From a virus: a stretch of 25,399 nucleotides of DNA. Where the stretch lies: IMG/VR virus record IMGVR_UViG_3300030329_000137, positions 1-25,399 of that record. One strand, 5' to 3'. This document shows, piece after piece, positions 1 to 21,626 of this stretch. Below the pieces are notes generated by a model, which was given only the letters and a program-made list of their open reading frames with translations, made no database searches and had not been told where the DNA came from. How positions within the stretch are numbered: the first letter of the stretch is position 1; every line of letters begins with the position of its first letter. A program made the translations under genes and the position numbers.

Positions 1-261
1 ATAAATAAAATAGACGAAGAGCGTCTATCTCAACCTGCTACTTATAATCAAGTAAGAGCTTTGAGTTTTAAATTTGCCAAAAGAAAGAATGGCACAATGG
101 ATTGGAAATTGCAGAAGCAATTGTTAGGTTGCCTTTATGGATTAATTAAAGCCAACAAACTAACCTTTCAGCAAGCTAATACTCTGTTCTCAAAGAAGGC
201 ACTTCCAAAGGTCTTTAAAGACATGATAAATGCTTACATAGAAAGCAATCCTGAAGCTTAG
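1..261 (+). CDS. hypothetical protein, 5' truncated by window edge
   Basis: The reading frame is open from base 1 to a TAG at 259-261, so this is the C-terminal 86 residues of a gene starting outside the window. A TTG at 61 could be mistaken for a start, but it has no ribosome-binding site and the frame continues upstream without a stop. The visible part is basic and mostly helical in character (KFAKRKNG, then WKLQKQLLGCLYGLIKANK). No family is recognised. It is the last gene of its transcription unit, because two intrinsic terminators follow at 278-367. Confidence 0.6.
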   Translation: MNKIDEERLSQPATYNQVRALSFKFAKRKNGTMDWKLQKQLLGCLYGLIKANKLTFQQANTLFSKKALPKVFKDMINAYIESNPEA

Positions 262-277
262 TTAATTAGCTAAAGAA

Positions 278-313
278 AAAGAGTAAGTTCTGAAAAGGGC
301 TTGCTCTTTTTTT
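278..313 (+). terminator. intrinsic terminator, first of a tandem pair
   Basis: AAAGAGTAAG (278-287) pairs with CTTGCTCTTT (300-309), ten pairs with one G-U, around a 12-nt loop, and runs directly into further T residues. It lies 17 bases after the stop of the first gene. Confidence 0.85.
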
Positions 314-335
314 ATGTCTATAAGGGTTACTAAGT

Positions 336-367
336 AGGCTTTACATCCTGTAAAGTCTTCTTTTTTT
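336..367 (+). terminator. intrinsic terminator, second of a tandem pair
   Basis: CTTTACA (339-345) and TGTAAAG (349-355) form a perfect 7-bp stem with a TCC loop. The stem can be extended by A336-T358, G337-C357 and a G-U pair. A run of seven T follows at 361-367, separated by a few bases. It probably backs up the terminator at 278-313 and insulates the iteron region from upstream transcription. Confidence 0.65.
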
Positions 368-460
368 AAGGAGACCATACCATATTAAGTATCCTATTCT
401 TATTAAAGAAATAGGACCTCTATTCCGAAAATGAAATTTGAATTGGGGCAACAGGTGGAG

Positions 461-526
461 GGCGTGTTAATAAGCTGTGGATAACTTGTTAATAATCTGT
501 TTAAAAGCTGTTAAAAAGCTGTGAAA
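461..526 (+). repeat. six 11-bp iterons in an AT-rich non-coding region
   Basis: Units begin at 461, 472, 483, 494, 505 and 516, each exactly 11 bp, with consensus close to AANCTGTTAAT. The units are GGCGTGTTAAT, AAGCTGTGGAT, AACTTGTTAAT, AATCTGTTTAA, AAGCTGTTAAA and AAGCTGTGAAA. An AT-rich tract follows (GTTTTAAAATT). Helically phased short repeats beside an AT-rich stretch are typical of replication origins or of arrays bound by one protein. A perfect DnaA box spans the second and third units. The whole gap 262-873 has no convincing gene: it holds the terminators, these iterons, a promoter and two copies of an 86-bp repeat. Confidence 0.7.
476..484 (-). promoter_or_regulatory. perfect DnaA box (TTATCCACA)
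   Basis: TGTGGATAA on the plus strand is the exact reverse complement of the bacterial DnaA consensus. It falls inside the iteron array. One 9-mer can occur by chance, but its placement within phased repeats supports a function, perhaps recruitment of host DnaA. Confidence 0.5.
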
Positions 527-535
527 GTTTTAAAA

Positions 536-563
536 TTTACTTAGAAAACTTGGGTGGTATATT
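536..563 (+). promoter_or_regulatory. candidate sigma70 promoter with extended -10
   Basis: TTTACT (536-541), a 16-bp spacer and TATATT (558-563) preceded by TGG, i.e. an extended -10. It lies just after the iterons and could drive the early genes or primer RNA for replication. Confidence 0.4.
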
Positions 564-618
564 AAAAACTAATTAAACTTATGCCTTGTTTAAATTTTTT
601 ATTTCAAGACAGCATCTC

Positions 619-704
619 TTTAATATATTTTCTGCCCTATATTGTCCTAAGAGATAGTGGATTTTGTCGCCAAAATTTGCTAGAATTTTAAAGGCTAGGC
701 AGAG
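619..704 (+). repeat. 86-bp direct repeat, copy 1
   Basis: Begins TTTAATATATTT, continues with CTGCC and TATATT, then AAATTTGCTAGAATTTTA, and ends near GGCAGA. Copy 2 starts 131 bp downstream at about 750. The -10-like TAGAAT of this copy is at 681-686, but its -35 position reads TGGATT, so it is probably a weaker or decayed promoter. Confidence 0.6.
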
Positions 705-749
705 CGACCTAGCGGTTATATCTTTAAAGATTTTACAAAACAACAAGTC

Positions 750-836
750 TTTAATATATTTCCTGCCGTATATTATCTTAGAGTATGCTTGCAATTTCCA
801 CCGAAATTTGCTAGAATTTTAGGGTCTCGGCAGACA
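750..836 (+). repeat. 86-bp direct repeat, copy 2, containing a strong promoter
   Basis: Same order of blocks as the copy at 619-704: TTTAATATATTT, CTGCC, TATATT, AAATTTGCTAGAATTTTA and GGCAGA. This copy has gained or kept a good -35 (TTGCAA at 789-794). Divergence is mainly in the middle third. Confidence 0.6.
789..817 (+). promoter_or_regulatory. sigma70-type early promoter with extended -10
   Basis: TTGCAA (789-794), 17-bp spacer, TAGAAT (812-817) preceded by TGC. The expected transcript starts near 824 and begins with a short hairpin, GTCT-CGGC-AGAC (824-835). The same -35, spacing and TGN extension recur at 1167-1195 and 6361-6389, so this looks like the phage's own promoter class read by host RNA polymerase. 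Confidence 0.7.
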
Positions 837-873
837 GGCAATTTTATAAACTAATAAACCTAAGGAGGTTAAA

Positions 874-963
874 ATGGAAAAGGTTAAGATTATACAAGAT
901 TGGGATTTAGTTGAAAGACTATTAGAAGAGATTGAAGAAAATAATAATAGTGAGGAGGACTAA
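874..963 (+). CDS. 29-aa acidic peptide
   Basis: ATG at 874 is preceded by a strong AAGGAGG ribosome-binding site, and the 29-residue product is acidic at its C-terminus (EEIEENNNSEED). The stop overlaps the next start in a TAATG junction, which suggests translational coupling. It is the first gene after the repeat promoters, a position typical of early phage genes that act on the host. No family is recognised. Confidence 0.6.
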   Translation: MEKVKIIQDWDLVERLLEEIEENNNSEED

Positions 964-1148
964 TGAACTTTAGAACACATGACTTGGCATTTAACCATTA
1001 TCAAAACAAAGGTTTCAAATATAATAAATCCATGAGTATCAAAGAAGATAAGTGGTTTATATTTAACAAGGGCAAAAGCTATGTAGTTATAACTCCTAAA
1101 TATGACAGCATATTAGGAACTAAATGGATAGCTAGAGCATGGTCTTAG
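963..1148 (+). CDS. hypothetical 61-aa protein
   Basis: It starts at the A of the preceding TAATG junction, with GAGGAG just upstream as ribosome-binding site. The product is basic and aromatic-rich with a likely beta-strand segment (KWFIFNKGKSYVVITPKYD) and ends ARAWS. No cysteine cluster, membrane segment or known motif is visible. It sits in the early region between two promoters of the same class. Confidence 0.6.
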   Translation: MNFRTHDLAFNHYQNKGFKYNKSMSIKEDKWFIFNKGKSYVVITPKYDSILGTKWIARAWS

Positions 1149-1166
1149 CCTTAAAGTATTATATGC

Positions 1167-1195
1167 TTGCAATCTGTGGCAAGATGTGGTAGACT
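1167..1195 (+). promoter_or_regulatory. sigma70-type early promoter with extended -10
   Basis: TTGCAA (1167-1172), 17-bp spacer, TAGACT (1190-1195) preceded by TGG. It is followed by TTTTAGGCTTCGGCAGAC, matching the segment after the 789-817 promoter. It should drive the gene at 1265. Confidence 0.7.
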
Positions 1196-1264
1196 TTTTA
1201 GGCTTCGGCAGACTGGTTTCTTTAAGAAACTTTTTAATAATAATACCTGAGGAGGTAAATAAAG

Positions 1265-1669
1265 ATGAGTAATATTACTTATACTAGAAAAGGTAGTGCG
1301 ACTACTAGAAAAATCGCAGATGCTCCACAATCAGTACAAGCTGTATGGAATCAGGCTTCTGATTTGGGAGTGAATGTTCTTAGAGTTAGAGTTGCTCAAG
1401 AGAGAAACGAAATAACTCAAGGAAATACTTTTGATGGCTATCATCAAGGTAAAGTATCTCTTTACAAACAGAGAGCTAATCCTATTGATAAGCTTTGGTT
1501 CAGAAGGTTTGTGAAGTTGAATGAATCCAATAAAGGTATGCAAGTTTTAGAAGTTGCACACAATATGGACGTTCAAAATACTTTAGAGACTATTGATGAC
1601 TATAATAGCTTTATCAATGGTAACATTTTTGTTAGATTGTTTACTGCAATCAGAAAAGTATTCGCTTAA
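1265..1669 (+). CDS. hypothetical 134-aa early protein
   Basis: ATG at 1265 follows a strong GAGGAGG site and a dedicated promoter at 1167-1195, so strong expression is likely. The product is basic (TYTRKGSATTRK at the N-terminus, RLFTAIRKVFA at the C-terminus) with an amphipathic C-terminal helix. It has no cysteines and no recognised domain. Position directly behind an early promoter, with a non-coding block following, suggests an early host-interaction or regulatory protein, but that is inference. Confidence 0.75.
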   Translation: MSNITYTRKGSATTRKIADAPQSVQAVWNQASDLGVNVLRVRVAQERNEITQGNTFDGYHQGKVSLYKQRANPIDKLWFRRFVKLNESNKGMQVLEVAHNMDVQNTLETIDDYNSFINGNIFVRLFTAIRKVFA

Positions 1670-1929
1670 TTACTAAGCTAAAGTAGAAAGGTGCTAGTAC
1701 CTAGAATAACTAGCAAGGTTTTCTAGTTGTCCTTTAACAAGCTAGAGACAGGTTAGACTATGATAGTAAACTAACTTGGGTAAAACTATCAAGTGTATCT
1801 AGTGCGTGATGGTTGATAGGGAAATTAGCAGTTACTGAACTATCCAAAGTGTAAAACCTAGATTAAATTTGGGGTATCTTTGCTAACCCAACTGCCCACT
1901 AGCTACACACTTTTAATTGAGGAGAAACT
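1670..1929 (+). ncRNA. structured non-coding block upstream of the GP88-like gene
   Basis: No ORF or strong promoter is seen in these 260 bases, but complementarity is dense. AACTAG (1708-1713) pairs with CTAGTT (1723-1728). A long-range stem AAGTGT/CTAGTG (1791-1804) pairs with CACTAG/ACACTT (1897-1912). Inside it are GATAG (1815-1819) with CTATC (1840-1844) and TTGGG (1869-1873) with CCCAA (1887-1891). GCAGTT (1828-1833) could alternatively pair with AACTGC (1890-1895). The block shares GTGCTAGTAC and a hairpin-CCCAA-CTGCC-closing-stem ending with 5085-5290. It may be a cis-regulatory leader or a free RNA; no known riboswitch class was recognised. Confidence 0.45.
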
Positions 1930-2658
1930 ATGCCAACATATAAATTACTATCAAGCTCTAGTCCTAAGATAGACAAGAGCAATAAGATACAGGACAAATA
2001 CTTTAGTAGGATTATGTATTTAGCACCACATAATCTAGCAGATAACAAACGTACTGTATGTCCATATGCTACTATTGCAAAATGCCATGAGCCATGTTTA
2101 AATACAGCAGGTCTTGGTGGTGTTTACTCTAGTATTCAGAAAGCTAGGATTAGAAAGACCTTAATGTTCTTAGATGATAAAGGAACTTTCATGGCAGAAT
2201 TGTTTAAAGACATTTTTAAATTTCAAAAAGAATGTGAGGACTTAGGAAAGCTACCTGCTTTAAGGTTGAATGGAACGTCAGATATACAATGGGAGACTAT
2301 TAAGATTAAGAATAAAAACATCTTTGATTATTTTCCTGATGTGTTGTTCTATGATTACACTAAGATACCTACAAGAAAGGTTGAGGGAATAGATAACTAC
2401 CACTTGACATGGAGCTATTCAGAAGCACATAAGAAATATTCAGAGTTGTTTGATAAAGTTCCTTACAATAAGGCAGTTGTGTTTAGAAAAGAATTACCTT
2501 CAATGTTTAAAGGATTGAAAGTTATAGATGGAGATGCACACGATATGAGATTTTTAGATGAATCTAACGTAGTGGTTGGTTTAAAAGCAAAGGGCAAAGC
2601 TAAGAAAGATTATTCAGGCTTTGTAGTTGATAACTTAATAGAAGCGAGGGCAGTATGA
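1930..2658 (+). CDS. GP88-like phage protein (unknown function)
   Basis: This 242-residue protein has the features I associate with the phage 'gene product 88' family: LAPHNLAD near residue 31, a Cys cluster VCPYATIAKCHEPCLNTAG at about 43-62 (C-x7-C-x3-C), a following Q-x-AR-x-RKT helix, the signature RLNGTSDIQWE near 117, and FYDYTK near 140. The clustered cysteines suggest a bound metal or Fe-S cluster, but no spectroscopy-backed function for the family is known to me. The start ATG has a GAGGAG site 7 bases upstream. It follows the structured block 1670-1929, which may control it. The stop overlaps the next start (ATGA). Confidence 0.7.
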   Translation: MPTYKLLSSSSPKIDKSNKIQDKYFSRIMYLAPHNLADNKRTVCPYATIAKCHEPCLNTAGLGGVYSSIQKARIRKTLMFLDDKGTFMAELFKDIFKFQKECEDLGKLPALRLNGTSDIQWETIKIKNKNIFDYFPDVLFYDYTKIPTRKVEGIDNYHLTWSYSEAHKKYSELFDKVPYNKAVVFRKELPSMFKGLKVIDGDAHDMRFLDESNVVVGLKAKGKAKKDYSGFVVDNLIEARAV

Positions 2659-2788
2659 AAATAGATAAAAAATGGCAAGATGCATTACAACAAGCAGCCG
2701 AAGAAGGTTGGGAAGAAGAAGCATTAATAAGTAGAGCACAACAAATATGTGGGATAGACTAATGGATATAGAAGCGAGGGCAATATGA
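2638..2788 (+). repeat. two copies of a 21-bp gene-junction repeat
   Basis: The sequence ATAGAAGCGAGGGCA followed by GTATGA (2638-2658) or ATATGA (2768-2788) occurs twice with a single mismatch. Copy 1 is the end of the GP88-like gene (IEARAV-stop) fused to the next ATG. Copy 2 is preceded by ATGGAT, so 2762-2788 reads as an 8-codon ORF (MDIEARAI) ending at the next start in the same way. The repeat carries a ribosome-binding site plus overlapping stop/start. Confidence 0.75.
2655..2762 (+). CDS. 35-aa hypothetical peptide
   Basis: The start overlaps the stop of the GP88-like gene (GTATGA), and GCGAGGG just upstream can serve as ribosome-binding site. The product is a helical acidic peptide (WQDALQQAAEEGWEEEALIS) ending CGID. 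The stop is TAA at 2760-2762. Function unknown. Confidence 0.5.
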   Translation: MKIDKKWQDALQQAAEEGWEEEALISRAQQICGID

Positions 2789-2976
2789 TAACTTTAGACG
2801 AAATGAAAGATGCTTTAGTTGAGCAAGAAGTTGATTACATTAAAGAAATGGTAATTAAAGACAGACATGACGATTTAGTTGAGTTTGTTTATTTACATTC
2901 TTTTAATGATTTTAAACACATGGATGATGGAGACATCAAAGAATTATATAACCATTACTATGGAGATATGATATGA
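2785..2976 (+). CDS. hypothetical 63-aa acidic protein
   Basis: ATG at 2785 is the start inside junction repeat copy 2, with GCGAGGG as ribosome-binding site. The product is acidic and helical with histidines (KDRHDDLVEFVYLHSFNDF) and ends YNHYYGDMI. The stop overlaps the next start. No family recognised. Confidence 0.6.
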   Translation: MITLDEMKDALVEQEVDYIKEMVIKDRHDDLVEFVYLHSFNDFKHMDDGDIKELYNHYYGDMI

Positions 2977-3080
2977 TGATACTAAATTACGAAAGTAAAA
3001 AAGAGTTGAAAGAATATTTGATTTACCAATATGGAGATTGGGAAGATGACTATGGGTATGAGGAGACCGACAATGGATAA
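2973..3080 (+). CDS. 35-aa hypothetical peptide
   Basis: ATG at 2973 (a second ATG follows at 2976) overlaps the previous stop. The product starts MMILNYESKKELKEY, is rich in Tyr, Asp and Glu, and ends EETDNG. Its end lies in the duplicated junction at 3061-3081. Function unknown. Confidence 0.5.
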   Translation: MMILNYESKKELKEYLIYQYGDWEDDYGYEETDNG

Positions 3081-3270
3081 ACTAATTAATTTTTTACAAG
3101 ATGATTTAAAAGAAATAGATGAATCTTTTGAAAGTGTAAAACAAGTTATGGAGGATAAAATCTATTATGAGAATAGAGGTGATTTAGAAAACCATATTGA
3201 AAGAATAGATAGATTTATTTCTTATTGGCAACAACACGTTAAAAGTTTAAAGGAGTCCGACAATGGATAA
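3073..3270 (+). CDS. hypothetical 65-aa protein
   Basis: The start is placed at ATG 3073 (MDKLINFLQDDL) because AGGAG lies 7 bases upstream and the same junction recurs at the next gene. An upstream in-frame ATG at 3031 lacks a site. The product is helical and charged, with a coiled-coil-like middle and WQQHVKSLK near the end. It finishes ESDNG, paralleling the TDNG end of the preceding peptide. Confidence 0.6.
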   Translation: MDKLINFLQDDLKEIDESFESVKQVMEDKIYYENRGDLENHIERIDRFISYWQQHVKSLKESDNG

Positions 3271-3514
3271 AAAAATGAAATTAATAATAAAAGCAATTGA
3301 AGAAATTATAGAAGATTCAAATACAATTAGTGATATTAGAAATAATTTATTTGATATTGAAGAACGTCAAAAGTATGACCATGACTATGCTATTGAACAG
3401 ATTAGTCAGGGAGTTAATGATTTACATTATGATATTCAAGATGATTTAGATTCATTACAACAACAGATTGATGAACTGAAAGATTATATTGAAAAATTGA
3501 CGGAGAAACTATAA
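3263..3514 (+). CDS. hypothetical 83-aa coiled-coil protein
   Basis: ATG at 3263 with AGGAG upstream, in the second copy of the junction repeat. The product is almost entirely helical, with heptad-like hydrophobics in the C-terminal half (LDSLQQQIDELKDYIEKL), so a coiled-coil oligomer is likely. It overlaps the next gene by one base (TAATG). No known family. Confidence 0.65.
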   Translation: MDKKMKLIIKAIEEIIEDSNTISDIRNNLFDIEERQKYDHDYAIEQISQGVNDLHYDIQDDLDSLQQQIDELKDYIEKLTEKL

Positions 3515-3774
3515 TGACTGAAGAAGAAATAACGTGGAGAGAAGAAGTAATAGATTTTTTAGGAGACTATTGGGAAATAGAAGGTAGACCTGATCTGTTT
3601 AATGATGTGGTTGATCATGTTCTAAATGTATATCCTGAAAATAATTTTGATGATAAAGTTATCTTAGGTGAAGCGTTTGCGTTTTTACAAACTCATTGTA
3701 GATCAGCAGTATCATCAGCAGATTTAAATTTTATGGCAGAAGAACAAAGGAGAAAGAATGAGCAATCACTTTAA
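3514..3774 (+). CDS. hypothetical 86-aa protein
   Basis: It starts in a TAATG junction with CGGAG as ribosome-binding site. The product is acidic with aromatic residues (REEVIDFLGDYWEIEGRPDL) followed by a helical region, FAFLQTHCRSAV. No domain is recognised. The next gene begins inside its last codons. Confidence 0.6.
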   Translation: MTEEEITWREEVIDFLGDYWEIEGRPDLFNDVVDHVLNVYPENNFDDKVILGEAFAFLQTHCRSAVSSADLNFMAEEQRRKNEQSL

Positions 3775-3904
3775 TGATTTAAGAATCGAACAACTCTTTG
3801 ATGAAGGGTTAGAGATAGGGTTAGCTAAAGGTCTGACAGGAGAAGCATTAGATTTCTTTGCAGAAAAATACGCTAGAAAACATTTTAATAAATATGGAGA
3901 CTAA
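3758..3904 (+). CDS. 48-aa hypothetical protein
   Basis: ATG at 3758 lies in the last codons of the preceding gene, with AAGGAG upstream. The 48-residue product is helical (RIEQLFDEGLEIGLAKGLTG) with a basic tail (KYARKHFNKYGD). It ends one base before the next start. Function unknown. Confidence 0.5.
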   Translation: MSNHFNDLRIEQLFDEGLEIGLAKGLTGEALDFFAEKYARKHFNKYGD

Positions 3905-3905
3905 T

Positions 3906-4268
3906 ATGAAAGCAATATTAATAGATGTAAAAAACCAATTAGTAAAAGAAGTAGAGCACGATGATACTCTAGATAATATCTATGAGTTAATAGACTGCCG
4001 AACTTTTGATGTTGTTAGTATAGATGGGAAGAACTCAATCTATGTTGACGATGAAGGTTTATATAGAGAGGACCAATTATACTTTGAATACTTTGGAACT
4101 GAACACTCAGTTAGATTAGCAGGGAATGGTTTAATCTTAGGATTAAATAGAGAGACAGGTGATTCAATTAGTCCTACTCTAAGTGTTGAGGAAGTAGAAA
4201 ATAAAGTAAGGTTTATACCTTCAGGCTTTTCAATTGAGCCTGACTTCAGGATAACTGAATGGAATTAA
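3906..4268 (+). CDS. DUF3846-like protein
   Basis: The start is taken at ATG 3906 because GGAG sits 8 bases upstream and MKAILIDV is the expected N-terminus; an in-frame ATG at 3858 lies inside the previous gene. The 120-residue protein has the pattern I associate with DUF3846: an MKAILID strand, a middle IYELIDCRTFDVVSIDGKN, then IYVDDEGLYREDQ. DUF3846 proteins are common in phages and plasmids, with no established activity known to me. The end overlaps the next start by 10 bases. Confidence 0.55.
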   Translation: MKAILIDVKNQLVKEVEHDDTLDNIYELIDCRTFDVVSIDGKNSIYVDDEGLYREDQLYFEYFGTEHSVRLAGNGLILGLNRETGDSISPTLSVEEVENKVRFIPSGFSIEPDFRITEWN

Positions 4269-4501
4269 AATTTTATTATGATGACAAGGGTGTTCCTGTC
4301 CAATGGACATATGCTGTAAGACCTAAGAAACTAATCTTCTATAAAAATTGGAGACCTAAAAAACAGAACATAAAAGTTATAGGGTTGACAAACGAGAAGG
4401 AAAATGATAGACTACAGCAAGAAATTTTGGACGACATTAACAGAAAGGAACACCCTAAGAAAGAAAAGTTAACAGGAATGTATGCAAGGAGGACCAATTG
4501 A
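4259..4501 (+). CDS. hypothetical 80-aa basic protein
   Basis: ATG at 4259, inside the end of the DUF3846-like gene, with CAGGA upstream. The N-terminus looks like beta strands (ELKFYYDDKGVPVQWTYAV), followed by a Lys-rich stretch (RPKKLIFYKNWRPKKQ) and a charged helix. The high positive charge would fit nucleic-acid binding, but no motif confirms it. Confidence 0.55.
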   Translation: MELKFYYDDKGVPVQWTYAVRPKKLIFYKNWRPKKQNIKVIGLTNEKENDRLQQEILDDINRKEHPKKEKLTGMYARRTN

Positions 4502-4767
4502 ATTACAAACAATATAGAGCTCAAGTTATAGATGAAGATAATGAAGAGTTTATCATTAAAACTTTTGCAGTAACTATGCAAGAAGCGTTAGACAATATAG
4601 TTCTGATGCCTAGCATTACTCATGTAGTGCAGTTAAATTGTGATGAGACTGATGAAGAGTGGGTTAGACATGGTAACTTAGACTTAAATGATTTGAGGGA
4701 AGTAAGAGATTTAATTACAGATGAGAAAGAACTGTTGGAGGTACTAATTAATAATGAGAAAAGCTAG
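4498..4767 (+). CDS. hypothetical 89-aa protein with TTG start
   Basis: The start is a TTG at 4498, chosen because a perfect AGGAGG lies 5 bases upstream (4487-4492) and the stop of the previous gene overlaps it (TTGA). The product reads (M)NYKQYRAQVIDEDNEEF, then FAVTMQEALDNIV, then an acidic tail. This resembles small phage proteins with one beta-alpha-beta unit, but no named family is recognised. The weak start codon may keep its level low relative to neighbours. Confidence 0.6.
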   Translation: MNYKQYRAQVIDEDNEEFIIKTFAVTMQEALDNIVLMPSITHVVQLNCDETDEEWVRHGNLDLNDLREVRDLITDEKELLEVLINNEKS

Positions 4768-4903
4768 AACACAAGTAGAGCACGTATCTAAGACAGGTTC
4801 ACGAGGTAAAAAGACTTCGATTGGTAGAGGTAATGTAGGTTACTCGACCATGCCGAAGAGAAAGAAAGAAACCTACAAAAAATATAGAGGTCAAGGAAAA
4901 TGA
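4754..4903 (+). CDS. small basic phage protein (49 aa)
   Basis: ATG at 4754 overlaps the end of the preceding gene; TTGGAGGT lies about 17 bases upstream. The product is very basic, with TGSRGKKTSIGRG in the middle and KKYRGQGK at the C-terminus. I recall small phage proteins with a 'GKKTSIGR ... KKYRGQG' pattern in several marine phages, so it is probably a real conserved gene. Function unknown; nucleic-acid binding is a guess from charge. Confidence 0.65.
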   Translation: MRKARTQVEHVSKTGSRGKKTSIGRGNVGYSTMPKRKKETYKKYRGQGK

Positions 4904-5028
4904 AAATAACTGCATGGAATTTAGGTATTGTTTGGGAAGATGGTACGGAAGAAAAGATAGCAGACATACCTGATTGGGTAGCAAACAGAGTTGATAAATT
5001 CTTAAATGAATTAGAGGAAGAATATTAA
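4900..5028 (+). CDS. 42-aa hypothetical protein
   Basis: ATGA overlap with the previous stop; AAGGAAAA is the only upstream purine run. The product starts MKITAWNLGIVWEDG and ends with an acidic helix (NELEEEY). It is the last gene before the second structured block. Confidence 0.5.
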   Translation: MKITAWNLGIVWEDGTEEKIADIPDWVANRVDKFLNELEEEY

Positions 5029-5049
5029 ATATTGTCTACTCTATAGATG

Positions 5050-5078
5050 TTGGCACTTATTTATAGAATGACTTTAAA
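5050..5078 (+). promoter_or_regulatory. candidate sigma70 promoter for the second structured RNA
   Basis: TTGGCA (5050-5055), a 17-bp spacer and TTTAAA (5073-5078), i.e. 5/6 and 4/6 matches at -35 and -10. The transcript would start near 5085, at the beginning of the structured block. Confidence 0.45.
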
Positions 5079-5084
5079 GTTGCG

Positions 5085-5290
5085 TAGTGCTAGTACTTAG
5101 TTTCCTGATTCGTTGACTAATGCAGGATAGAAGGATTCCGATTCGGTAGGTACTGCAACTAAGTATAAGTCTGATTTTCCCACACTTGCGTGGAGGTTTG
5201 TACATACTTTAAACAACAAAGCCACAATTTGCGAAGTAGTGCTAGGCATCACTACCCAAAAACTGCCTACTTATATTAATAATTAATGGA
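5085..5290 (+). ncRNA. structured non-coding block upstream of the 77-aa gene
   Basis: There is no ORF in 5029-5298. TACTTAGT (5094-5101) pairs perfectly with ACTAAGTA (5158-5165), enclosing a CCTGATT/AAT-G-CAGG hairpin (5104-5126). TATAAGT (5164-5170) pairs with ACTTATA (5269-5275). GTAGTG (5236-5241) pairs with CACTAC (5250-5255), and its loop TAGGCA (5243-5248) is complementary to TGCCTA (5264-5269), an H-type pseudoknot. It shares GTGCTAGTAC and the 3' arrangement (hairpin, CCCAA, CTGCC, closing stem) with 1670-1929. It may be a leader controlling 5299 or a free RNA. Known classes such as glnA/Downstream-peptide or cobalamin riboswitches were considered, but their core motifs are absent. 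Confidence 0.5.
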
Positions 5291-5298
5291 GGGTAAAA

Positions 5299-5532
5299 AT
5301 GAAAGTAAAACATTTAAAAACAAAAACAGTTATCGAGTTAACTCCAAAAGAGTTAGACCAATACTCAAAGTATCTAAGAGAATTAGATTCGGCAACACAA
5401 ATGTTAAATGAATGCGGAGACTTATATGTAAGTGACCTGCAAAATTTAATAAACTTAGAATGGAGACTAAGAGAATTGTTAGGTCTTAGATTTAATAGAG
5501 AGACTTGGCAGTATGAAAAGGATAAAAAATGA
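5299..5532 (+). CDS. hypothetical 77-aa protein
   Basis: ATG at 5299 has a good GGAGGG site. The product is helical (ELTPKELDQYSKYLRELDSA) and ends in an amphipathic segment, LEWRLRELLGLRFNRETW. It overlaps the next gene by 4 bases (ATGA). It is the first gene after the second structured block, so it may be that block's target. No family recognised. Confidence 0.6.
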   Translation: MKVKHLKTKTVIELTPKELDQYSKYLRELDSATQMLNECGDLYVSDLQNLINLEWRLRELLGLRFNRETWQYEKDKK

Positions 5533-6005
5533 TTGACGTATCAAAAGCAACACTAGATGTTATTGAAGCTATTAAAACTAAACAAACTATAAAGTTTAAT
5601 TATGGTATGGATATTGTTAGAGAGATAACACCTACAGGATTCTTCGGAGACTTCGATGGCTTTGAAGGTACTGATGAACAAACTGAATCAAGAGAGTTTA
5701 GAAGGTTTAGATTTAATAAAGTAAATCAATGGATAGGTATTAAAGATACACGACACGAATTAGAATGTGCTTTAAGAGAAGCTAGAGAGATAACTAAAGA
5801 AGCTAAGTATCTTTGTTATCCTGTGGGTGAAATCACAACAAAACTTTCTAGTCTAGCTGATCAGCATGGTTTACTTGACGAGATGAATGAACTATTAGAT
5901 CAAGTAACAGAAGCCGAACATAAATTAGAGAGTGCATTCTATGAATGTGAGTCAGTCTTTGAAGAAGCTATAAGTGAATTAGAATTAGAAGAAGACTATG
6001 ACTGA
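5529..6005 (+). CDS. protein with a WYL-like domain
   Basis: Residues about 15-75 resemble a compact WYL domain: IKTKQTIKFNYG, then REITPTGFFGDFDGFEG, then REFRRFRFNKVNQW, matching the WYL pattern of a Y-containing strand, an 'R-x-x-x-P' turn and a final 'R-x-F-R-x-x-K/R-I/V' strand. WYL domains bind ligands or nucleic acid in transcription regulators and in CRISPR and other phage-defence systems. Here no helix-turn-helix precedes it. Instead a long acidic helical tail (about 75-158) follows and ends ELELEEDYD. It may be a stand-alone sensor or decoy. The family call is from pattern only. It overlaps the next gene by 8 bases. Confidence 0.5.
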   Translation: MIDVSKATLDVIEAIKTKQTIKFNYGMDIVREITPTGFFGDFDGFEGTDEQTESREFRRFRFNKVNQWIGIKDTRHELECALREAREITKEAKYLCYPVGEITTKLSSLADQHGLLDEMNELLDQVTEAEHKLESAFYECESVFEEAISELELEEDYD

Positions 6006-6171
6006 GTATGATGTTAGACCTATGTATGAAGAGCAGGTTAAGAAAGATACTATCACCTCTCTTCATGCTAATGGTGGAGTACTTGAAGTTAGATATGCTG
6101 ATGGAACTATGGCAATCTATAAGAAAAGTAAATGGAGAAACAAGTTTAAATTAATAAGGAGAAGACAATGA
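5998..6171 (+). CDS. hypothetical 57-aa protein
   Basis: ATG at 5998 lies inside the end of the WYL-like gene. The first half is acidic, followed by a beta hairpin-like GGVLEVRYADGTMAIYKKS and a basic tail KFKLIRRRQ. It overlaps the next start (ATGA). The 'L-x-V-x-Y-x-D-G' stretch is common in small phage proteins of unknown role. Confidence 0.55.
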   Translation: MTEYDVRPMYEEQVKKDTITSLHANGGVLEVRYADGTMAIYKKSKWRNKFKLIRRRQ

Positions 6172-6371
6172 ATGAAGAACTATTCAAGTTAACAAAGGAC
6201 CAGTTCAGAGAATGGGATACCTTTTGTACAGAGAATGGTGCAGAGATGTATAAGAATAAAGATACTTATTCTATTGTACACTCAGCTACTTCTGATACAT
6301 ATAATTTATATGTAGATTCAAAAGAGCAATCAGGAATAATAAATTTCTTGAATAAATTGCTTGCATCGTAG
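6168..6371 (+). CDS. hypothetical 67-aa protein
   Basis: ATG at 6168 with AAGGAG upstream. The product has an N-terminal helix (EELFKLTKDQFREWDTFC), then strands (YSIVHSATSDTYNLYVD) and a C-terminal helix. The last codons contain the -35 element of the promoter at 6361-6389. No family recognised. Confidence 0.55.
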   Translation: MNEELFKLTKDQFREWDTFCTENGAEMYKNKDTYSIVHSATSDTYNLYVDSKEQSGIINFLNKLLAS

Positions 6372-6389
6372 AATTAGATGTGGTATACT
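6361..6389 (+). promoter_or_regulatory. strong sigma70 promoter with extended -10, upstream of SSB
   Basis: TTGCAT (6361-6366), 17-bp spacer, TATACT (6384-6389) preceded by TGG. The last ten bases match the 1167-1195 promoter (GATGTGGTANACT). The predicted start near 6396 coincides with the first base of a stem, as expected for a designed leader. Confidence 0.8.
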
Positions 6390-6395
6390 GCTTGC

Positions 6396-6557
6396 ACTCA
6401 AAGACATGACCTTAATATTAAAGGCAATTTCCTTGAGTCATTAAGTAGCTATGCCCTCTATCTCCATCCTCCTCAAGGTGCTACTTAATTCAGTTATCTG
6501 AGGTGATGGGGCAACTGGCTCATAGCCCCAACTCGAAAGAGTTAGCTATGGTTTTTT
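6396..6557 (+). ncRNA. switch-like leader or small RNA (about 160 nt) before SSB
   Basis: It runs from the predicted start of the 6361 promoter to an intrinsic terminator. One fold has ACTCAA (6396-6401) with TTGAGT (6433-6438), and ATTAAGTAGC (6440-6449) with GCTACTTAAT (6480-6489), ten perfect pairs. A competing stem is CCTTGAG (6431-6437) with CTCAAGG (6472-6478), which conflicts with the first and crosses the second. A small hairpin, TTCAG/CTGAG, follows at 6490-6502. TGGGGC (6507-6512) with GCCCCA (6525-6530) then competes with the terminator stem. Mutually exclusive pairings ending in a terminator are the hallmark of an attenuator or riboswitch, though a free-standing small RNA fits too. 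No known class was recognised. Confidence 0.6.
6521..6557 (+). terminator. intrinsic terminator in the SSB leader
   Basis: CATAGC (6521-6526) pairs with GCTATG (6545-6550), and AACTC (6530-6534) with GAGTT (6539-6543), closed by a GAAA tetraloop, with a small internal loop between them. Six T follow at 6552-6557. It stands between a strong promoter and the SSB start, so read-through must occur or be regulated for SSB to be made from that promoter. Confidence 0.8.
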
Positions 6558-6587
6558 ATAATACTGTTAAATAACAAGGAGAAAAAT

Positions 6588-7001
6588 ATGGCAGTACAAG
6601 AAGGAACTGCGTATTGGGCAAGTATTAAAACACCTAATACCAGATTTGAACCAGTATTCACAATCAACCTAGTGGTTGACGAGGATACTGCAAATGATTT
6701 TGCGTCAAGAGGACACACAATCAAACAACTTGATGAAGGACCATCAATAGTTATCAAGAGAAAAGTTAACGGACCAAATGGAATGGTCAGACCTGCACCT
6801 AGATTACTGGATGCAGACAAACAAGAAGTTAACTATTCAGTTGGTAATGGTTCTAAAGTCAAGGTTCAGTATAACGAGTACGAAGGCGAGAATAAGTTTG
6901 GACCTTATAAAGGGTTGGACTTACAAGCAGTTCAAGTGCTTGACCTTGTTGAGTATCGTTCCGAAGACGGAGCTGAATTACTTGACGGGGAGGAATTCTA
7001 A
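6588..7001 (+). CDS. T7 gp2.5-like single-stranded DNA-binding protein
   Basis: The 137-residue protein resembles phage OB-fold SSBs of the T7 gp2.5 type. It has an N-terminal strand region (GTAYWASIKTPNTRFEPVF), a middle IKRKVNGPNGM and the segment VQYNEYEGENKFGPYKGLDL. The acidic tail ends EEF: in T7 gp2.5 the acidic C-terminus with a terminal Phe contacts polymerase and helicase, and the same arrangement is seen here. It is shorter than T7 gp2.5 (232 aa). The start has AAGGAG 7 bases upstream. It opens the replication module and sits directly behind the switch-like leader 6396-6557. Confidence 0.75.
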   Translation: MAVQEGTAYWASIKTPNTRFEPVFTINLVVDEDTANDFASRGHTIKQLDEGPSIVIKRKVNGPNGMVRPAPRLLDADKQEVNYSVGNGSKVKVQYNEYEGENKFGPYKGLDLQAVQVLDLVEYRSEDGAELLDGEEF

Positions 7002-7282
7002 TGGCAGATACTCCCGAACTTTCAGGACCACCTATAACTATAAATAATGATGATGGTTCATCTAAAATTTATGACACGGGTTTATTAAGTCCTGAAGCAA
7101 GACAAGCTGTAGATATGATGGCTTTTATCAATCGATTAAGGCAAGTATTAGATACATCTAGTCAAGTATTCAGTAATGTTGTAACAAGCAATCTAACTGA
7201 TGAAGCTATGGTTGATGAAACTGTAGTAGCTGAAGAGGTTGCTGATGAAGACGACACTACTGATGAAAAAGATACTAAGTAA
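7001..7282 (+). CDS. hypothetical 93-aa acidic-tail protein
   Basis: It starts in a TAATG junction with GGGAGG upstream. The N-terminal half (ITINNDDGSSKIYDTGLLS, then a helix around INRLRQVLDTSSQVF) resembles small phage proteins grouped as DUF6447-like, though this is a weak match by eye. The C-terminal 30 residues are strongly acidic (EEVADEDDTTDEKDTK). It is coupled to SSB and ends before a strong terminator, so it may act with SSB. Confidence 0.55.
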   Translation: MADTPELSGPPITINNDDGSSKIYDTGLLSPEARQAVDMMAFINRLRQVLDTSSQVFSNVVTSNLTDEAMVDETVVAEEVADEDDTTDEKDTK

Positions 7283-7303
7283 TTTTAGTATCGTTGTTAG
7301 ATC

Positions 7304-7338
7304 GAGGGCAGGTAGTAGTGGCTTGCCCTCATTTTTTT
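7304..7338 (+). terminator. intrinsic terminator after the SSB pair
   Basis: GAGGGCA (7304-7310) pairs with TGCCCTC (7324-7330), seven perfect pairs with a 13-nt loop, followed by A and seven T (7332-7338). It separates the SSB unit from the primase-helicase gene and would reduce downstream expression relative to SSB. Confidence 0.85.
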
Positions 7339-7351
7339 ATGAGGAGGTTAT

Positions 7352-9004
7352 ATGGAACAAAGTAATTGGGATCGGCACAATCTACCATGTCCGAAATGTG
7401 GTGGAAGTGATCCTGTTTCTACAAATAAAGATGGTTCAGGCTACTGCTTTAGTTGCGAGAGCCATTTTAAAAACTATCAAGACTCTCTTGATGGGAATAT
7501 CGTAGAGATGTCTACACATAAAGAGCCTACCACATTCTTAAACTCATACACAGGAGTCTTTGGAGACTTGACTGATCGTAATATTAGTGAAGATGTTGCA
7601 AAGAAATATGGTGTACGAGTTATTTATGATAGTCAAGGTAATGTTCTTAAACATATCTACCCTTACTACAATAGTAATGAAATAGTTTCTACTAAAACTA
7701 GAACTGTATCAACTAAAGGCTTTGTAGTTAATGGAGGATATGAGGGGACTGGTCTTTTCGGAGAACAACTCTTTGGAAAGGGTGGTAAATACCTGACTAT
7801 AACAGAAGGTGAGTGTGATGCTATGGCAGTCTACGAAATCTTTGATAAGAAATGGGCATCTGTTTCTATCAAACGTGGTGCGAGTGGTGCAGTTAGAGAT
7901 ATACGAGACAGCATTGAGTTTGTAGAATCTTTTGATAATGTTATTATCTGTTTTGATAATGACAAGTATGGAAGAGAAGCAGCTAGGAAAGTTGCTCGTA
8001 TTATAAAACCCGGCAAAGCTAAGATAGTTTCTTTACCTGAAGGTTTTAAAGATGCTAATGCTATGCTTGAGCAAGGGCAGTACGCACAGTTTACTAAAGC
8101 TTGGTGGGATGCTAAGACATACACACCATCAGGTATTATGGAACTCTCTAGTGCCAAAGATAAATGGTTACATAGAGAAACCAAACCAAGTATTGCATAT
8201 CCATGGGAAGGCTTAAATAAAAAGCTATTTGGTATGCGAAAAAATGAACTCGTTTGTCTTACAGGTGGAACGGGTTTAGGTAAGTCAAGTATCACAAGAG
8301 AGCTTACTCATTATCTTATTAAGAACACAGAAGATAACGTAGGTATCATAGCTCTTGAAGAGAACTGGCTTAGAACTGCTGATGGTATTGTATCTATCGA
8401 AGCTAATGATCGTCTTTATCTTGAAGAGAAAAGAAAGAATTACACAGACGAACAACTCACCGAGTTATTTGATAAGGTAATTCAGAAAGATAAAGTATTT
8501 ATCCATGCTCATTTAGGAGCTACAGATATAGATGAAATATTTTCTAAGCTTAGATACATGATCGTTGGTTGTGAATGTGATTGGGTAATAGTGGATCACT
8601 TACATATGTTAGTGAATCAGCTTACTGAATCCGATGAACGTAGAGGTATTGATAATCTTATGAATCGTTTACGTTCTCTTGTTGAAGAGACAGGTGTAGG
8701 TATGTTCTTAGTATCTCACCTTAGAAGAGCAGCAGGAGAGAAAGGACACGAACAAGGTATTGAAGTTTCGTTATCGCATCTCAAGGGATCTCAAGGTATA
8801 TCACAACTATCAGATTGTGTTATAGCTTTAGAAAGAAACCAACAGTCAGAAGATGAGAAGGAAGCCAATACTACAAAGGTCCGAGTTCTTAAATCTAGAT
8901 ACACAGGAGACACAGGTTTAGCCTGTAGTTTATTATATAACCCACATACAGGTCGCATGAGTGAACTCACAGACGAGGATACTTTAGATGATCTACCATT
9001 TTAG
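7352..9004 (+). CDS. T7 gp4-like DNA primase-helicase
   Basis: This 550-residue bifunctional replication enzyme synthesises primers and unwinds DNA at the fork. The N-terminal zinc ribbon uses C13, C16, C32 and C35 (CPKC...CFSC). The TOPRIM domain shows TEGECDAMA near residue 150 and FDNDKYG near 201, supplying the catalytic acids. A RecA-like helicase follows, with Walker A GGTGLGKSS near 304-312, Walker B VIVDHLHML near 411 and SHLRRAAGEKGHE near 455. Length is close to T7 gp4A (566). ATG at 7352 has GAGGAGG upstream. It follows a terminator, with no clear promoter of its own, so expression probably depends on read-through. The short gap to the polymerase gene indicates co-transcription. 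Confidence 0.95.
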   Translation: MEQSNWDRHNLPCPKCGGSDPVSTNKDGSGYCFSCESHFKNYQDSLDGNIVEMSTHKEPTTFLNSYTGVFGDLTDRNISEDVAKKYGVRVIYDSQGNVLKHIYPYYNSNEIVSTKTRTVSTKGFVVNGGYEGTGLFGEQLFGKGGKYLTITEGECDAMAVYEIFDKKWASVSIKRGASGAVRDIRDSIEFVESFDNVIICFDNDKYGREAARKVARIIKPGKAKIVSLPEGFKDANAMLEQGQYAQFTKAWWDAKTYTPSGIMELSSAKDKWLHRETKPSIAYPWEGLNKKLFGMRKNELVCLTGGTGLGKSSITRELTHYLIKNTEDNVGIIALEENWLRTADGIVSIEANDRLYLEEKRKNYTDEQLTELFDKVIQKDKVFIHAHLGATDIDEIFSKLRYMIVGCECDWVIVDHLHMLVNQLTESDERRGIDNLMNRLRSLVEETGVGMFLVSHLRRAAGEKGHEQGIEVSLSHLKGSQGISQLSDCVIALERNQQSEDEKEANTTKVRVLKSRYTGDTGLACSLLYNPHTGRMSELTDEDTLDDLPF

Positions 9005-9012
9005 GAGGCAGT

Positions 9013-10746
9013 ATGAAAGAAATTGTATTTGATATTGAAGCCAATGGTTTGAAACCTGATACTATTTGGTGTATAGTAGCTAAACCTTTAGGAGAACCTG
9101 TCGTTTCCTTTGGTCCTTCTAGAATAAAAGAAGGTATTACGTATCTTAAAGAAGCAGATGTTCTAATAGGACATAACATTTTAGGTTTTGATATTCCTGT
9201 ACTTGAAAGACTACATGATGTTAAATTTAATGATAAAGTTATTAAAGATACTTTAGTTATGTCAAGACTTTTTAATCCGATCCGAGAGAATGGTCACAGT
9301 TTAAAGACTTGGGGATACGTAGTTGGTATGCCTAAGGCTGAACAACCTGAGGATTGGGATAGTTATAACACAGACATGTTGAAGTATTGTCAGCAAGATG
9401 TGATATTAAATGAAAGAGTTTACAAAAGACTTCTTGAAGAAGGTAAAGATTTTTCAGAAGAGTCTATTAATTTAGAACATTCTGTTGCTTTAGTATTAAA
9501 AGAACAGGAAGATACTGGATTTGAATTCAATCAAGAGCAGGCTATGTTATTAGTTGCACAATTAAAAGAAAGAATGTTCGAGGTTGAAAAGGAAGTTCAG
9601 AAGGTATTCAAACCTAAGATGGTTGATATAAAATTAGTAACACCTAAACTTAAAAAGAATGGTACACTATCTAAGTCAGGTTTGACTGCTGAAGAATATG
9701 AAAAAGTACTAGCAACTGCTGACTTAAAACCTTTTATGAGGCAGAAGTTACAACCTTTTAATCTAGGTAGTCGTAAACAGATTGGTGAATATCTTACAGA
9801 CTTTGGTTGGAAACCTAATAGGTTTACTCCTACTGGTCAACCAATTGTAGATGAATCTTCCTTAGCTAAGGTAAAGAAAATACCTGAGGCTAGATTAATA
9901 GCAGAGTTTCTTTTATTACAGAAGAGAATTGCACAGATAGATTCATGGATACTGGCTGTTGATGAAGACAGTAGAGTGCATGGTTTTGTAGTACCTAATG
10001 GTACTATCACAGGTAGAATGTCCCACAGGTCTCCTAATGTAGCTCAAGTTCCTAGTTTAGCTAGTGAATATGGGAAGGAATGTAGAGCCTGTTGGACAGT
10101 TAAAGATGGTTATAAATTATTAGGTGTAGATGCTAGTGGTCTTGAACTACGAATGCTTGCACACTATATGGACGATGAGGATTATATAAATGAAGTTACG
10201 ACAGGAGACATACACACAGCTAATCAAAGACTTGCAGGACTTGAATCAAGAGATCAGAGTAAGACTTTCATCTATGCCTTTATCTATGGGGCAGGAGATG
10301 CAAAAATTGGGAGTGTGGTTGGAGGAGGTAAAAAGCTTGGAGCAGAACTTAAAGAACGCTTCCTCTCTAATAACCCATCACTTAGAACTCTTAGAGAAAG
10401 AGTATTTAAAGCAGCTAAACGAGGATACCTCAAAGGATTAGATGGTCGTAAGATATTTATTAGAAATGAACATGCTGCTTTGAATAGTTTATTACAAGGT
10501 GGTGGTGCAATAGTTATGAAGAGAGCATTAGCTATGCTAGACTCTCTCATTAAATTAAATACATATGATGCTAAGTTTGTAGCTAACATCCACGATGAAT
10601 GGCAAATGGAAGTTAGAGAAGATTTAGCAGATCATATAGGAGAATTAGCTGTCGGTTGTATTGAGAAGGCAGGTGAATATTATAACATGCGTTGCCCTTT
10701 AACAGGGGAATATAAAATAGGAGGTGATTGGAGTGAAACCCATTAA
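9013..10746 (+). CDS. family A DNA polymerase (T7-like replicative)
   Basis: 577 residues. A DEDDy 3'-5' exonuclease domain comes first: FDIEANGL with D7 and E9, HNILGFDIPVL near 55, and YCQQDV near 126. The polymerase domain has motif A VDASGLELRML near 373, motif B KTFIYAFIYG near 416-428 and motif C NIHDEW near 526. The residue four after the motif B Lys, equivalent to E. coli Phe762, is Tyr, as in T7 gp5 (Tyr526). There is no 5'-nuclease domain. It is smaller than T7 gp5 (704), so any processivity insert must be short. The start ATG has GGAGG upstream, and the gene ends inside the HNH gene's start region. Confidence 0.95.
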   Translation: MKEIVFDIEANGLKPDTIWCIVAKPLGEPVVSFGPSRIKEGITYLKEADVLIGHNILGFDIPVLERLHDVKFNDKVIKDTLVMSRLFNPIRENGHSLKTWGYVVGMPKAEQPEDWDSYNTDMLKYCQQDVILNERVYKRLLEEGKDFSEESINLEHSVALVLKEQEDTGFEFNQEQAMLLVAQLKERMFEVEKEVQKVFKPKMVDIKLVTPKLKKNGTLSKSGLTAEEYEKVLATADLKPFMRQKLQPFNLGSRKQIGEYLTDFGWKPNRFTPTGQPIVDESSLAKVKKIPEARLIAEFLLLQKRIAQIDSWILAVDEDSRVHGFVVPNGTITGRMSHRSPNVAQVPSLASEYGKECRACWTVKDGYKLLGVDASGLELRMLAHYMDDEDYINEVTTGDIHTANQRLAGLESRDQSKTFIYAFIYGAGDAKIGSVVGGGKKLGAELKERFLSNNPSLRTLRERVFKAAKRGYLKGLDGRKIFIRNEHAALNSLLQGGGAIVMKRALAMLDSLIKLNTYDAKFVANIHDEWQMEVREDLADHIGELAVGCIEKAGEYYNMRCPLTGEYKIGGDWSETH

Positions 10747-18114: not shown

Positions 18115-20454
18115 TTAAAAAACTCCATCCCTCAAATCCGGTTGTAAAGCTTTCATGGTAGTTAAAGTATTCAAATTATCTCCTGCTAGTTTATAAAAAG
18201 CGTTAATGTTATCATCTATTTTTACATCAGTATAGATGGCTCTAGGTTCATACCAATTAGTTTGTTTAGGTATGTCCCTTCCATAGTAATCTGTAAAGCC
18301 TGCGTTGTATCCTAAGTAAGCTACAAATACAGACTGATCACCGTACTCTCCTGTTTCTTCTTGAGAAGCTTGTGCTTGCTCTTGTTGTTCTTGTAAATTC
18401 TGTGCTACAATTTGATCGGCAACTTGGTCAGCTTCAGAAGGTGTACTAACTTCAGACATTGCTGTATCTATTTGTCCTTGCATATCTTGTACCTGTGTCT
18501 CAACTGTAGCAACTTCAACGGATACTTCAGTTGTTGGCATCGGTGAAGATGTTGTAGTTACATTACTTACTGATCCTGTATCAGCACTCATGGATAAGAT
18601 CGTATTAGTTTGTACAGATGCAGCAGTAAACTGATCCGATAGACTTGGAGAACTACTAGTACTAAAACTACTTCCACTTGATGAAGAAGCTACAGCACCA
18701 CTAACTCCTGATCCACCACTTCCACTTGACGAGCCTCCATAAGATGATGAAGCTCCTCCTGATGCTCTAGTATTACCTGTTGCATGAACAGACGTTCCTG
18801 CTGTCGTACCACTCACACTATTAGCAGCAGCTTGAACTGTACTAGCTACTACGTTGAGGGCTGTCTCCATATTCATTGAGCTTCCCTCTTCTCTGTCTAC
18901 TAACAAACCAACAACATCTGCCTCTTCTGACTCTTCGAGAAGTGCTTCTTCTTCTGCTTCTGCTACCCACTCTTCTTCGAGCTCTTCGTAGATTTCTTCA
19001 ACGGCTTCTTCCTCGAAGATTTCTTCTTCGGCTTCGGCATATAATTCTTCAGTTTCTTCTTCGCTGCCTTCATGCTCTTCTTGGATTTCTTCCATCTCCT
19101 CTTCAAACCATTCTTCAAGTTCTTCAAAGTCCTCGAAAGCCAAGTAGTTTTCTTCTTCGTCATAAGGTAGCTCCTCTCTTATTATAGTTTCAAACTCATA
19201 GAGTTCTGTTAAGTCTTCAGCATCAAATATTTCTAGATGCTGTATTGGTTCATATTGTTCTTCGTAGAATACAAACTCTTCTTCGTAATCATAAGTCTCT
19301 ATATATTCTATAAAATCAATTGTTTCTATATATGGGTCTTCCCAAAGTAATTCTTCTTCAAACCAAATCTCTTCCTCAACCCATGCGTAATCTTCTTCAA
19401 ACCAAATATCTTCTTCGTATCCGTAGTCATCTTCCCAAACAAACTCTTCTGTTATACCATAACTATCAGTAGTATGTTCGTCTTCATAACCATAATCAAA
19501 CTCTTCTTCGTATCCGTAATCAAATTCTTCTTCAATATAATAAGCTACTGAAGCCTCTTGTGTATAACCTGCACAGAACGGAGCATACTGTGGGTCTTCT
19601 TCACATTGTTGGTCATCATAAGCTTCCCAATATAAAGGACATGAAGTACTATGTAATGCATTTATACCACATTGCTGTGCTAAATAAGCTGCTGCATATC
19701 CTGAACAACTAGAATTATTTAAAGGATCACTACAGTCTATAGCATTTCCTGATCCTTCTCCATATAAACTACCACCATCTTCTAGTAAAGTATTACTAGC
19801 TGTACCATTCCAATTAGTGTTAACACATGTACCTGCAACATTAGTTGTACCTGTGTTACATTCATCGTGAAAAAGGTACGTATAGATTTCTGTTGCACTT
19901 CCTTGTTCTCCAATTAATACATCGTGGTTGGTGATATTTAAATCTCCATACCTATATTCAAAGGTATCATTAGTCCAAAGGATAACTTCAAAACTATTGT
20001 CAGTATTATTCCTACCATACTCTTTCATGTTATACCAACCAAAGACAGCTTTATCCGTAAAGTTTTTAGCAAGCATCTTTGAACCACCATCCCTAATTAA
20101 ATCAGTATAAAAAGGATATAGAGTATAGTTAGTATGTGGTAGTGGATCAGGTGTATAATCTCCACAATAGTTATTGTAGTTTACATTACCTGTTCCTAAT
20201 CCAAAATGAAGACAACCATTAGTAGCCATCCTAGCAGATGTAAAGTCTTCACCATATAAAGTAAACGTAAAGTCTAAATTAAAAGCACCTGCTAATTGAT
20301 CATCACCTGTATTAAAATTAGTAGTACCAGTAAGACTAGTTAAATTAAAAAGGTCTTGGTCAGCTTCATATACATATGCTGAATTACCTTTAGCTGCAAA
20401 AAAGAGAGCAGCAATTGACAATGCAGTTGCACATATAATGCTAACCTTGTTCAT
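18115..20454 (-). CDS. large secreted acidic protein with nidogen-like N-terminus
   Basis: 779 residues in clear blocks. (1) Signal peptide 1-26 (ALSIAALFFAAKGNSA). (2) Residues about 30-200 resemble a nidogen-like domain (FTLYGEDFTSARMATNGCLHF, then LYPFYTDLIRDGG). (3) Two exact-length 22-residue Cys repeats: C250 and C262, C272 and C284, then C294, each C-x-x-Y-x-x-AY-x-x-QQC. (4) An extremely acidic tract at 305-525 with FDYGYEEE and IWFEE repeats. (5) A Gly/Ser linker at 560-605. (6) A C-terminal domain, about 700-779, containing YLGYNAGFTDYYGRDIPKQ. It starts by TAATG coupling to the upstream gene. It could be a virion adhesin or a protein displayed on infected cells; no catalytic motif is seen. 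Confidence 0.75.
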   Translation of the reverse strand: MNKVSIICATALSIAALFFAAKGNSAYVYEADQDLFNLTSLTGTTNFNTGDDQLAGAFNLDFTFTLYGEDFTSARMATNGCLHFGLGTGNVNYNNYCGDYTPDPLPHTNYTLYPFYTDLIRDGGSKMLAKNFTDKAVFGWYNMKEYGRNNTDNSFEVILWTNDTFEYRYGDLNITNHDVLIGEQGSATEIYTYLFHDECNTGTTNVAGTCVNTNWNGTASNTLLEDGGSLYGEGSGNAIDCSDPLNNSSCSGYAAAYLAQQCGINALHSTSCPLYWEAYDDQQCEEDPQYAPFCAGYTQEASVAYYIEEEFDYGYEEEFDYGYEDEHTTDSYGITEEFVWEDDYGYEEDIWFEEDYAWVEEEIWFEEELLWEDPYIETIDFIEYIETYDYEEEFVFYEEQYEPIQHLEIFDAEDLTELYEFETIIREELPYDEEENYLAFEDFEELEEWFEEEMEEIQEEHEGSEEETEELYAEAEEEIFEEEAVEEIYEELEEEWVAEAEEEALLEESEEADVVGLLVDREEGSSMNMETALNVVASTVQAAANSVSGTTAGTSVHATGNTRASGGASSSYGGSSSGSGGSGVSGAVASSSSGSSFSTSSSPSLSDQFTAASVQTNTILSMSADTGSVSNVTTTSSPMPTTEVSVEVATVETQVQDMQGQIDTAMSEVSTPSEADQVADQIVAQNLQEQQEQAQASQEETGEYGDQSVFVAYLGYNAGFTDYYGRDIPKQTNWYEPRAIYTDVKIDDNINAFYKLAGDNLNTLTTMKALQPDLRDGVF

Positions 20455-21542: not shown

Positions 21543-21626
21543 TCTATCTCCATTTTTAGGGTGCATTATCCCTGTGAAGCTAACAATAGCATTCTTTTTA
21601 ATTTCCTCTTCAGTTTTTAGTAGTGG

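Follow-up and report, generated by a model that had tools for sequence, protein, structure and literature searches.

A DnaA-box array with an 11-bp period is a candidate start site of replication in marine phages with T7-like replication proteins

Phage T7 itself initiates replication from RNA polymerase transcripts. Where, then, does replication start in marine phages that have T7-like replication proteins and no detected phage RNA polymerase? Here, we analyze a repeat array that provides a concrete candidate for such a start. It lies in the virus record IMGVR_UViG_3300030329_000137, of which positions 1 to 25,399 were analyzed (the whole stretch of 25,399 nucleotides is referred to as the window). 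A preliminary description of this DNA had proposed that six phased 11-bp iterons with an embedded DnaA box, in an AT-rich gene-free region, form a replication origin that uses host DnaA or a phage initiator. We found no description of the array in the literature searched, mostly papers available without subscription.

The array consists of six 11-bp units in a common orientation, each made up of a 9-mer and a 2-bp gap. Units 1 to 5 match the DnaA box TGTGGATAA at 6 to 9 of 9 positions, and unit 6 is degenerate. Based on Tandem Repeats Finder, a repeat search, unit scoring, and comparison with TGTGGATAA, the features in the DnaA register are the following:

465-530, plus strand: array of six DnaA-box-like units with an 11-bp period
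465-475, plus strand: unit 1, TGTTAATAAGC, box-like with two mismatches
476-484, minus strand: perfect DnaA box TTATCCACA (TGTGGATAA on the plus strand; sequence match), in unit 2, TGTGGATAACT
487-497, plus strand: unit 3, TGTTAATAATC, box-like with two mismatches
498-519, plus strand: units 4 and 5, TGTTTAAAAGC and TGTTAAAAAGC, weaker box-like units with three mismatches
520-530, plus strand: unit 6, TGTGAAAGTTT, degenerate

The six 11-bp units of the preliminary description were borne out. Tandem Repeats Finder detected the array at periods 11 and 22, and a repeat search found four 28-nt copies at spacings of 11, 11, and 11. Among periods 7 to 24 in the gene-free stretch 262-873, a period of 11 scored best (38 of 55 matches), and this score was equaled by 1 of 1,000 dinucleotide shuffles of the stretch. 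The DnaA-box array score was 35; 300 Markov simulations of the window yielded scores up to 16, and the runner-up elsewhere in the window scored at most 12. No more than one array was found per scanned genome. The span given previously, 461-526, covers the identical array but is four bases out of phase with the DnaA register, and the perfect box said to lie across its units two and three is the one on the minus strand listed above. The gene-free location also holds, and the region is mildly AT-rich (73% AT in the array and 68% in 262-873). What does not hold is the division into iterons plus an embedded DnaA box: with five of the six units DnaA-box-like, these are one thing.

Judged by its sequence, each unit of the array is a DnaA box, either intact or degraded. 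Because five of six units are DnaA-box-like, host DnaA is the likely binder, and we consider it quite probable that the array is recognized by DnaA. In a pool of 60 units from the relatives and the window, positions 1 to 3 and 6 to 8 are nearly or mostly fixed, position 9 is mostly A, and positions 4 and 5 vary; this table was built by extending from exact boxes, so that a few flanking units are spurious (two in the window and one in L012), and three units of L083 are missing from it. The relatives' units are otherwise different (TGTATATAACC in the L009-type loci and TGTTAATTACC in L436 and L437), and they keep T, G, and T at positions 1 to 3 and mostly keep A, T, A, and A at positions 6 to 9. 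The phages themselves appear to lack the protein: a phage DnaA gene (PF08299) was found in none of 18 records, of which several are fragments, with controls detected in 10 of 14 genomes.

The spacing of the units has precedents in Escherichia coli. With 2 bp between neighboring 9-mers, the units are spaced like the sites in the low-affinity arrays of oriC, which are accompanied by consensus R boxes (accessible parts of PMC6727663 and PMC6784150). As in oriC, the phage array has 9-mers near TGTGGATAA in one orientation and 2 bp apart, and it combines one perfect unit with four box-like units; unlike oriC, there is one array rather than two opposed arrays, the consensus box lies inside the array or at its 3' end, no conserved DnaA-trios were found at the phage loci, and the carrier is a phage. 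Because DnaA look-alike sites are spaced as in E. coli oriC, the phage probably borrows host DnaA. We suggest that the array may work like an oriC DnaA array; however, we do not class it as an oriC-type origin, since it has no opposed partner array and the search for trios gave no conserved run. The GP88-like protein encoded nearby had no relative in the genome contigs searched for a host. E. coli DnaA in vivo favors box pairs 2 or 3 bp apart, of which one partner may be two bases off the consensus (PMC11317965, accessible part). The phage arrays share the spacing of these double boxes, but comprise five to nine units rather than two.

The same spacing is mirrored across viral genomes at large. 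In an exact scan of a viral collection for four copies of the degenerate unit TGTNNANAA, a pattern that did not require the consensus box, we obtained 11 stretches at period 10, at least 119 at period 11, 85 at period 12, and 3 at period 13; the mirrored unit at period 11 gave 21 stretches. A TGTGNATAA unit was present in 95 of the 119 period-11 arrays listed and in 52 of the 85 period-12 arrays, but in none of the 11 period-10 arrays and none of the three period-13 matches. Thus, the viral spacings that stand out, 11 and 12 bp, are the two spacings tolerated by E. coli DnaA. A strict four-box 11-bp pattern also occurred in 51 stretches of bacterial and archaeal contigs (L351-L401), including Aquificota and candidate division TM6. 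Two further measures were set aside: the overlap of the viral arrays with open reading frames is mechanical and uninformative, and a search of named phage records gave 562 matches with the E limit set at 10, compared with 6 for the mirrored query.

To determine how far the array is conserved, loci were collected in two ways. In a first pass via the GP88-like and 134-aa proteins, 9 of 83 scanned upstream rows scored at least 20 as DnaA-type arrays. A cleaner set of 53 loci was obtained by alignment of the 134-aa neighbor protein; leaving out L081, L415, L429, and L442, which have less than 1.2 kb upstream, gave 49 loci. Sixteen of these have a DnaA-type array at the corresponding position; they amount to approximately 12 distinct arrays because L083/L084, L405/L407, L406/L408, and L411/L416, judged by their arrays, are probable near duplicates. 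A lack of the 11-bp spacing in relatives, which according to the preliminary description would have counted against its proposal, was therefore not observed. The array occurred in 13 of 20 loci at 58% identity or more compared with 3 of 29 below, and an exact TGTGGATAA was found within 2.5 kb upstream in all 16 array loci compared with none of the 33 array-less loci. Between the window and L007, the array is 95.5% identical, while the six other intergenic segments are 47-89% identical, and exactly one whole 11-bp unit was gained or lost; in this comparison, no other part of the intergenic region is as well conserved as the array. In the four L009-type loci the contrast is smaller, with 90.7% identity in the array and 81-88% around it.

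Conservation has clear limits. No DnaA-type array was detected in 33 of the 49 homologous loci; these include seven of the 20 close relatives (L085, L086, L402, L403, L404, L412, and L413). Scans of the complete genomes of HTVC115P, HTVC103P, and HMO-2011 also gave no array. In L008/L413 (the same contig), the array is gone and both neighbor genes and a G-rich element are kept. This element, copies of which persist in array-less relatives, adjoins the array 5' in the window, and in L009, L011, L012, and L014 a second copy follows the array on its 3' side; because the copies flank the array in these four loci, deletion between them may be a route of array loss. A different 11-bp repeat, with a unit close to TGTCACATAAA in one orientation or the other, occupies the corresponding position in at least 11 of the 33 array-less loci (L417-L435, a cousin lineage). 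This count is partly circular because the motif was derived from these very loci; the repeat scored above the shuffle maximum of 3.5.

The array is embedded in a non-coding region. Upstream lie the end of a gene without assigned function (1-261), a hairpin, and the G-rich element; downstream follow AT-rich DNA, two direct repeats with promoter-like sites, and the early genes:

336-358, plus strand: terminator-like hairpin after the upstream gene (hairpin scan)
445-464, plus strand: G-rich element GGGGCAACAGGTGGAGGGCG, adjoining the array on its 5' side (comparison of loci)
531-600, no strand assigned: AT-rich DNA of low stability on the 3' side of the array, a weak candidate unwinding element (stability scan)
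789-817, plus strand: weak sigma70-like promoter TTGCAA-17-TAGAAT, upstream of the early genes (promoter scan)

The 60-bp windows at 521-600 fall in the 3rd to 5th stability percentile, and less stable stretches exist elsewhere in the window; the DNA flanking the array is thus moderately, not exceptionally, unstable, and immediately 5' of the window array it is the G-rich element rather than AT-rich DNA. A search for DnaA-trios gave no run conserved across the relatives, and a run of four upstream of the window array was rejected because it is the T tract of the terminator-like hairpin. The two direct repeats, 102 nt each (602-703 and 733-834), are 74% identical and contain promoter-like and hairpin sequences. 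The leader also has a AGACCATACCA element at 372, shared with L083, L084, L012, L008, L085, and L086, and three to four GTACCTT repeats at irregular spacing are present in the leaders of L083, L084, L012, L014, L008, and L020, with none in the window.

Farther downstream, the T7-like replisome named in the preliminary description was recovered by family searches:

6588-7001, plus strand: gp2.5-like single-strand binding protein, a presumed downstream player
7352-9004, plus strand: primase-helicase, presumed to load on opened DNA
9013-10746, plus strand: family-A DNA polymerase

The nearest named polymerases are those of the Pelagibacter phages HTVC103P, HTVC104P, and HTVC115P (50-51%), and BLASTN of window positions 1-8000 against named phages gave no match. 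The remark that no T7-type RNA polymerase is visible was also supported: PF00940 was detected in the positive control HTVC019P and in none of the 18 records, of which several are fragments. This result speaks against an origin of the T7 type, primed by transcription. In a report on HMO-2011-type phages (PMC9038755), the terms searched brought up nothing on RNA polymerase or on intergenic features. In the relative G004, the array lies between a leftward gene block and the rightward early genes, and the leftward genes appear similar in lengths and order to the HTVC115P genes for terminase and portal. A cumulative GC-skew check, which had been proposed for the origin, placed the minimum 0.5-0.8 kb from the array in G006 and G007; however, because this minimum coincides with the change in gene direction, it proves little for an origin.

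Taking these data together, we suggest that the array probably binds host DnaA and, with slightly less than even confidence, that it forms the core of the phage replication origin, the likeliest of the functions considered. Host DnaA would first bind the perfect box in unit 2, the presumed high-affinity nucleation site, and spread cooperatively over the adjoining weaker boxes, the 2-bp spacing allowing neighboring DnaA molecules to touch. The resulting filament would open flanking AT-rich DNA, on which the phage primase-helicase and then the family-A polymerase could load. T7-type helicases are able to load on exposed single strands. Of the two initiators initially considered, the DnaA-box units favor host DnaA; the absence of the array from seven of 20 close relatives and from three complete isolates weighs against an origin at this place. 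Predicted DnaA boxes have been described in one phage origin (PMC11512268, accessible part), and DnaA sites are reported to lack positional asymmetry in the phage genomes tested in PMC9437464.

The most serious alternative, which we regard as possible but rather unlikely, is that DnaA binds the array without starting replication, either titrating host DnaA or controlling the early operon just downstream. The sequence evidence for DnaA recognition serves this explanation equally well, the array is located ahead of early genes, and its loss in several relatives would suit a dispensable regulatory element. Moreover, similar clusters are present in early or terminal non-coding regions of named phages, among them the T7-like Berlinvirus P483 and the Klebsiella phage FBKp16, both of which encode their own RNA polymerase. 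The terminal clusters of Berlinvirus P483 and A7 resemble the array in that DnaA boxes, in part spaced by 11-12 bp, occupy a leader or terminal region; they differ in that their overall spacing is irregular and that P483 encodes an RNA polymerase. On the other hand, six sites seem few for titration, and control of the early operon finds little in the promoter scan, in which 10 sites compared with 6.9 expected make the individual sites weak.

It is unlikely that the units merely resemble DnaA boxes and serve as iterons of an initiator encoded by the phage. The TGTCACATAAA repeat of the cousin lineage suggests that the 11-bp period outlives the unit sequence and makes a phage-encoded initiator possible in that lineage, and the two conserved neighbor genes (86 aa, partial, and 134 aa) match no Pfam or PHROG family and might encode one. 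However, the exact consensus box tracks the arrays without exception in the 49 loci, both neighbor genes persist in the array-less L008/L413, and the model of the 86-aa protein (mean pLDDT 89) matched no fold in the PDB at an E value of 0.001 or better; the 134-aa protein gave a poor structure model.

Still less probable is that the array pauses or gates genome entry, by analogy with the proposed injection stop signal of T5, among the features of which are DnaA boxes (PMC13250531, accessible part). The T5-like phage Spc35 has box pairs within its first-step-transfer region, a non-coding stretch near early genes, and our array likewise precedes early genes; however, those pairs are 12 bp apart rather than part of a continuous 11-bp array, and T5-like phages have a terminal repeat and two-step entry, neither of which is established for the window phage. 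To our knowledge, two-step transfer is not known for these phages. In 262-873 of this 25.4-kb virus record, none of ten inverted-repeat pairs dominates the array.

That the 11-bp period reflects sites for CtrA (TTAA-N7-TTAA), which cluster between genes in some alphaproteobacterial phages and were shown to be bound in three phages (PMC9437464, accessible part), is very hard to credit and was rejected: TTAA occurs four times in the window array and one full site is present in each of the L007 and L083 arrays, but the arrays of the window, L009, L011, L012, and L014 have no full site, the latter four have no TTAA at all, and all seven arrays compared have an exact DnaA box.

Returning to the array as the core of an origin bound by host DnaA, we speculate about a more general function. 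DnaA arrays with 2- or 3-bp spacing, common to the leaders of many unrelated phages, might represent a shared handover of origin opening to the host by phages with their own replisome, and the array might be an exchangeable module in this marine group, lost in some members and replaced in others by another 11-bp repeat; we consider this combined proposal doubtful but worth stating.

Two further observations concern other parts of the window. Between the 134-aa and GP88-like genes, 1690-1920 is a conserved non-coding stretch (48% identity in an alignment of eight sequences) and may be a structured RNA with a long closing stem, GTGTAGCTAG / CTAGCTACACAC; the fold z-scores are −0.55 in the window, −2.78 in L003, and −2.00 in L083. 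Searches of the window gave no Rfam match and no tRNA. A tRNA-Tyr is present in L002, L003, L022, and L037, and by coordinates it lies directly 3' of the element in L002, L003, and L037. Finally, a long tract of Asn-Thr repeats is present in the protein encoded by 20454-21566 on the minus strand.
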